This document shows positions 27,018 to 27,270 of a stretch of DNA of 64,000 bases, one piece after another. The DNA comes from Microcaldota archaeon (GTDB taxonomy: Archaea > Micrarchaeota > Micrarchaeia > Micrarchaeales > Micrarchaeaceae), in assembly GCA_021811605.1 (NCBI GenBank), contig JAJZNR010000011.1, forward strand, positions 1 to 64,000. Reading direction: 5' to 3'. Under the pieces are notes generated by a model. That model made no database searches and was not told where the DNA came from. It saw only the letters and a list, made by a program, of their open reading frames with translations. Position numbers and translations under genes: made by a program. The stretch's first letter is position 1. Every line of letters begins with the position of its first letter.

Positions 27018-27170
27018 ACAGTGTTGCAGTGTAGGCATCTTTATATATTATACTCGGAGAGCCTTCGAAACCTATATATATTACCTGAGACGAAAGAGTG
27101 TTGTCGTGTCAACAATGCGACAGGTGGATACAGTAAATATATTTAAGCAGATGGGCAGAATATAGAGAGT

Positions 27171-27270
27171 GCAGGGGTGGCGGAGCTTGGTCAAACGCGG
27201 CAGACTCAAGATCTGTTGGCTTAGGCCTACGAGAGTTCAATGAACTACCGAACAAATCTCTCCCCCTGCA
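27171..27270 (+). tRNA. tRNA-Leu(CAA) with a 15-nt T-loop intron (27241-27255)
   Basis: Acceptor GCAGGGG/CCCCTGC, anticodon loop CTCAAGA, class II variable arm, T-stem GAGAG/CTCTC; loop interrupted by TGAACTACCGAACAA. Splicing restores TTCAAAT. Confidence 0.9.

Follow-up and report, generated by a model that had tools for sequence, protein, structure and literature searches.

A very short, putatively spliced T-loop intron in tRNA-Leu(CAA) shared by most genomes of an archaeal order

Introduction

Non-canonical introns are known from archaeal tRNA genes, as an initial sequence-only reading of the DNA studied here had noted, and those of the T-arm have been described at positions such as 53/54, 56/57 and 59/60 (PMC4090602). 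T-loop introns are among them, and relaxed motifs are efficiently removed only by splicing endonucleases of the (αβ)2 and ε2 types (PMC6379350, PMC4090602, PMC12397907). The closest described system is that of ARMAN-2 (Candidatus Micrarchaeum acidiphilum), whose tRNA introns are processed by a three-unit ε2 EndA (PDB 4fz2, 9w2k), an enzyme type of about 390 aa in which roles have been assigned to two residues of the ARMAN-specific loop, Y160 and K161, and to the catalytic residues Y236, H251 and K282 (PMC6379350, PMC12397907).

Here we describe a tRNA-Leu(CAA) gene from a stretch of 64,000 nucleotides (the window) of a Micrarchaeaceae genome. Like the known archaeal T-arm introns (PMC4090602), the intron of this gene is of the bulge-helix-bulge (BHB) type, with a central helix formed partly by the exon and with removal – here predicted – by the splicing endonuclease; unlike them, it lies at 58/59, measures 10-21 nt among relatives, lacks an inner helix in the window, and is fixed, in a single tRNA, through most of an order. 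The window comes from the same family as ARMAN-2, and a genome close to ARMAN-2 carries an intron at the same site, but the genus and the intron sequence are different. Whilst T-loop introns and the ε2 enzyme are already known, the notable elements are the order-wide fixation and the brevity of introns that have no inner helix. We found no description of this order-wide conservation and minimal anatomy in the literature searched, the 2011 ARMAN EndA paper lying outside its scope.

Results

The gene lies on the forward strand at 27171-27270 and matches the Rfam tRNA model RF00005 with 43.7 bits (gathering score 29), the alignment placing 15 extra residues in the T-loop. Its anticodon is CAA and its variable arm is long, as in tRNA-Leu; direct reading also gives an acceptor stem GCAGGGG/CCCCTGC (27171-27177/27263-27269), a T-stem GAGAG/CTCTC (27231-27235/27258-27262) and, for the T-loop, the string TTCAA-TGAACTACCGAACAA-AT. 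Alignment to orthologues and to natural intronless alleles delimits a 5' exon of tRNA positions 1-58 (27171-27240). The 15-nt intron TGAACTACCGAACAA follows at position 58/59 (27241-27255), as placed by the TTCAAAT found at this site in intronless relatives and by the intron ends that limit the ambiguity, and the 3' exon, matched by Rfam and by alignment, covers positions 59-73 (27256-27270) with AT, CTCTC, CCCCTGC and the discriminator A. Upstream, taaatatatttaa (27134-27146, forward strand) is probably the archaeal TATA box of this gene, judging from its sequence and its distance of ~30 nt from the tRNA 5' end. ARAGORN, run on the window, did not call the gene.

Removal of 27241-27255 would leave the T-loop TTCAAAT and a standard T-arm, GAGAG-TTCAAAT-CTCTC. 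This restored arm had been anticipated by the sequence-only reading, and the same T-loop is indeed seen in natural intronless alleles; the proposed gene and its 15-nt insertion likewise hold at the same coordinates, given the Rfam match and the many genomes that share the site. A DNA search of 100 relatives returned matches in 98, with an insertion at the same site in ~90. We extended this by a pattern search of 302 genomes of the phylum, comprising 165 genomes (two families) of the window's order and 137 others. The intron-bearing pattern was found in 134 genomes, all within the order, and in none of the 137 outside it; together with G064, whose variant end was read by eye, the same-site T-loop intron is present in 135 of the 165 genomes of the order. 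These represent about 50 genera, across which the intron sequence drifts freely. In eight genomes of the order the gene is intronless, with the loop TTCGAAT in G006 and TTCAAAT in G018, G037, G061, G099, G216, G218 and G220, and the remainder, many of them incomplete, matched neither pattern. No genome of the order was found with both an intron-bearing and an intronless tRNA-Leu(CAA), a second pattern match in G020 not being a tRNA. As three of the four genera with intronless genomes also contain intron-bearing ones, a single gain followed by several losses would be the simplest history, on taxonomic labels rather than a tree.

Among 84 resolved genes the intron has a length of 10-21 nt (mode 13) and 82 distinct sequences, its interior evidently free, whilst the exon ends are invariant (5' exon ...TTCAA^, 3' exon ^AT...). 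The four nucleotides preceding the last two of the intron are only ever GAAC, GAGC, GAAT or GGAC; each substitution is G.U-compatible, so that pairing with G53-U54-U55-C56 is kept. In the 76 genes that had been found by BLAST, without use of the GAAC motif, this pairing holds in all 76, whereas 1000 shuffles of the introns gave 1.6 on average and never more than 7. In most genes a T stands ahead of the GAAC-type stretch and could also pair with A57. On these comparisons, the shared site and the pairing are far beyond chance.

In the window, the 5' strand of this central helix is exonic (G53-T54-T55-C56, 27235-27238) and its 3' strand, GAAC, is intronic (27250-27253). Fold and alignment place the 5' splice site in a bulge AA^T (27239-27241) and the 3' splice site in a bulge AA^A (27254-27256). 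The predicted minimum-energy fold of the pre-tRNA (-35.0 kcal/mol) contains GAGA-GTTC-AAT...GAAC-AAA-TCTC, exactly the motif proposed from the letters: a 4-bp central helix GTTC/GAAC between two 3-nt bulges at the exon-intron junctions, as expected of a BHB, with the nuance that the outer helix GAGA/TCTC stands two nucleotides out of register with the mature T-stem. AAT-GAACTACC contains no inner helix on the intron side, such as the full hBHBh' form has, in keeping with what had been suspected, and the motif is therefore a relaxed one. Relaxed members of the BHB family are those in which this inner helix is missing.

Which outer helix the endonuclease would meet is less clear-cut. There is a little short of an even chance that the substrate has its T-stem in register (49-52/62-65), the 3' bulge then being a relaxed one of 5 nt, and not the shifted GAGA/TCTC with a strict 3-nt bulge. 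The window's fold of lowest energy has the shifted helix, but the in-register form, at -33.9 kcal/mol, is about equally stable, and E(shift)-E(in-register) averages +0.6 kcal/mol across the intron-bearing set; we tried to choose between the two by energy, and the difference is too small to decide. The T-stem is able to shift in 82 of 84 intron-bearing genes, which speaks for the shifted helix, whereas the shift is impossible in G163, which belongs to another family and has the same GTTC/GAAC site with a 120-nt insert. The in-register stem is in any case a variant of the BHB-type intron favoured here, and not an alternative to it.

Position 50 of the T-stem is always a purine in intron-bearing genes. 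Two of the intron-loss lineages (L124, L132 and L148, compared with intron-bearing relatives) have T50, with which the shifted outer helix would be broken; perhaps this constraint was relaxed after intron loss, the independent events being few.

The position of the intron, given as about 58/59 in the sequence-only reading, deserves comment because A residues repeat in exon and intron and several cut phases would leave the window's mature tRNA unchanged. A real intron spliced instead at 56/57 or 57/58 would be invisible here for this reason, and the relatives make it very unlikely. The introns of four of them end in AC, and cutting them in another phase would turn the loop into TTCACAT and remove the conserved A58, so that only 58/59 is possible if A58 is kept; the intron of a fifth ends in TA, which rules out 56/57. 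The cut rule for BHB motifs also yields 58/59, and the position is thus supported by this rule and by five relatives that limit the ambiguity.

The sequence-only reading had also pointed to ARMAN lineages and their ε2 endonuclease, and had proposed the type of EndA as a check. The ARMAN-type lineage holds, and the enzyme stands for the order, where the ARMAN-2 EndA used as query detected orthologues in 157 of 165 genomes, and for the genus, where one genome has a 383-aa EndA ORF that matches 4fz2 over nearly its full length (E = 4e-157). It does not extend to the organism's own assembly, which is 62.8% complete and in which neither a family search nor the proteins of relatives found an EndA, probably through incompleteness. 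All 38 EndAs examined retain the loop residues Y160 and K161 as well as the catalytic Y236, H251 and K282. The EndA of G029 is identical to the 4fz2 sequence at 377 of 377 residues, whence G029 would be ARMAN-2 or extremely close to it, and the window would accordingly belong to the family Micrarchaeaceae of the order Micrarchaeales; the G029 tRNA-Leu(CAA) has a 13-nt intron, AAAATTTGAACAA, at the same site. From these sequences, the ε2 EndA is the enzyme that would match the T-loop intron, and cleavage is predicted. The RtcB ligase is encoded in the own genome (E = 4e-166), ~3.4 kb beyond the end of the window.

Discussion

We hold with high confidence that this gene is functional, that it is the sole tRNA-Leu(CAA) gene of the recovered sequence, and that its 15-nt intron at 58/59 is of the BHB type, with cleavage expected from an ε2 EndA and joining from RtcB. 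Only with the intron gone could the pre-tRNA form a normal T-loop. In the precursor, the GAAC near the 3' end of the intron would pair with the universal G53-UUC of the T-arm, giving the 4-bp helix and the two 3-nt bulges; the broad-specificity EndA would then cut both bulges between their second and third nucleotides, and ligation by RtcB would yield GAGAG-TTCAAAT-CTCTC. What the sequences show is the intron with its pairing and its conserved site, the intron-minus alleles, the organism's own RtcB and an ε2 EndA in most genomes of the order; that the transcript is cut and rejoined, and that the unrecovered third of the own genome contains an EndA gene, is what we infer.

Could a chance insertion instead have disabled this copy of tRNA-Leu(CAA)? 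Such a pseudogene would account for the disruption of a universally conserved loop and for a gene that ARAGORN does not call, but the same-site insertion recurs in 135 of 165 genomes with the tRNA body intact, and the end of the intron is constrained to pair with GUUC. Nor did a search of the own genome (62.8% complete assembly) find the second, intact tRNA-Leu(CAA) that a pseudogene might leave behind, and intronless copies are likewise missing from the intron-bearing relatives. With no redundant copy found and the tRNA body fully conserved, we consider the pseudogene highly improbable and reject it on comparative evidence; a functional intron follows from the constrained 3' end, the intronless relatives with the predicted T-loop, and the lack of any genome with both forms. 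An insertion retained unspliced, leaving a mature tRNA with an enlarged T-loop, is rejected on comparative evidence as scarcely credible, since its length would range over 10-21 nt with a free interior, intronless alleles have the standard 7-nt T-loop, and the order conserves a splicing endonuclease suited to relaxed motifs.

Returning to the spliced intron, its anatomy is that of a minimal tRNA intron, with the universal TPsiC sequence providing most of the splice signal. In principle, then, a GAAC-AA end would nearly suffice to make a T-loop insertion removable. A freely drifting intron, together with natural intron-minus alleles, offers a clean natural series in which to test what a broad-specificity ε2 endonuclease requires. 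There is a practical side as well: ARAGORN overlooked the gene here, and other tRNA finders not adjusted to introns of this sort can do likewise, in which case Leu(CAA) would be wrongly reported as absent. Why the intron has been kept across the order invites speculation, and one rather doubtful idea is that splicing at 58/59 checks the maturation of tRNA-Leu(CAA), the register-shifted stem held by GUUC blocking the D-loop/T-loop elbow, and the processing that depends on this elbow, before EndA acts.

In tRNA-Leu(CAA) genes beyond the order, long insertions at 37/38 are frequent, and of two dozen resolved genes, read by eye, about seven are also interrupted in the T-loop, by 14-120 nt and mostly at 59/60. 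Most of these insertions show TTCR/YGAA-type pairing with an in-register stem, and one of the seven is without a convincing helix. These other families of the class (G115, G116, G187, G188 and G205 at 59/60; G163 at 58/59) thus share with the window the tRNA and the loop, with a central helix formed by T54-57 or G53-C56, and differ in the length of their inserts, in the usual position, and in the long 37/38 intron that often stands beside them (loci L186, L189, L190, L192, L251 and L279). At this frequency, T-loop introns of tRNA-Leu(CAA) are recurrent in the class, and that of the order is their shortest and most uniform version.

Other tRNA genes of the same genome

Three further tRNA genes of this genome, all outside the window, depart from the usual form. 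The tRNA-Leu(TAA) at L309 (G000:C9:31300-31700) has a D-loop insertion of ~21 nt (AATGGCAAAGCAAAGCCACGG), probably another non-canonical intron. At L307 (G000:C22:2300-3400), a tRNA-Leu(TAG) is without a 5' acceptor strand to pair with its 3' CCCCTGC; its relatives L158 and L159 have a normal GCAGGGG strand, and no GCAGGG was found within about 700 nt upstream of the gene. A split tRNA, an acceptor intron, a pseudogene and a misassembly are all candidates for L307. Lastly, a second tRNA-Glu(TTC)-like gene at L308 (G000:C6:11300-11900) has an unmatched 5' acceptor strand, and its D-arm region contains a TTTCGTC/GACGAAA hairpin.
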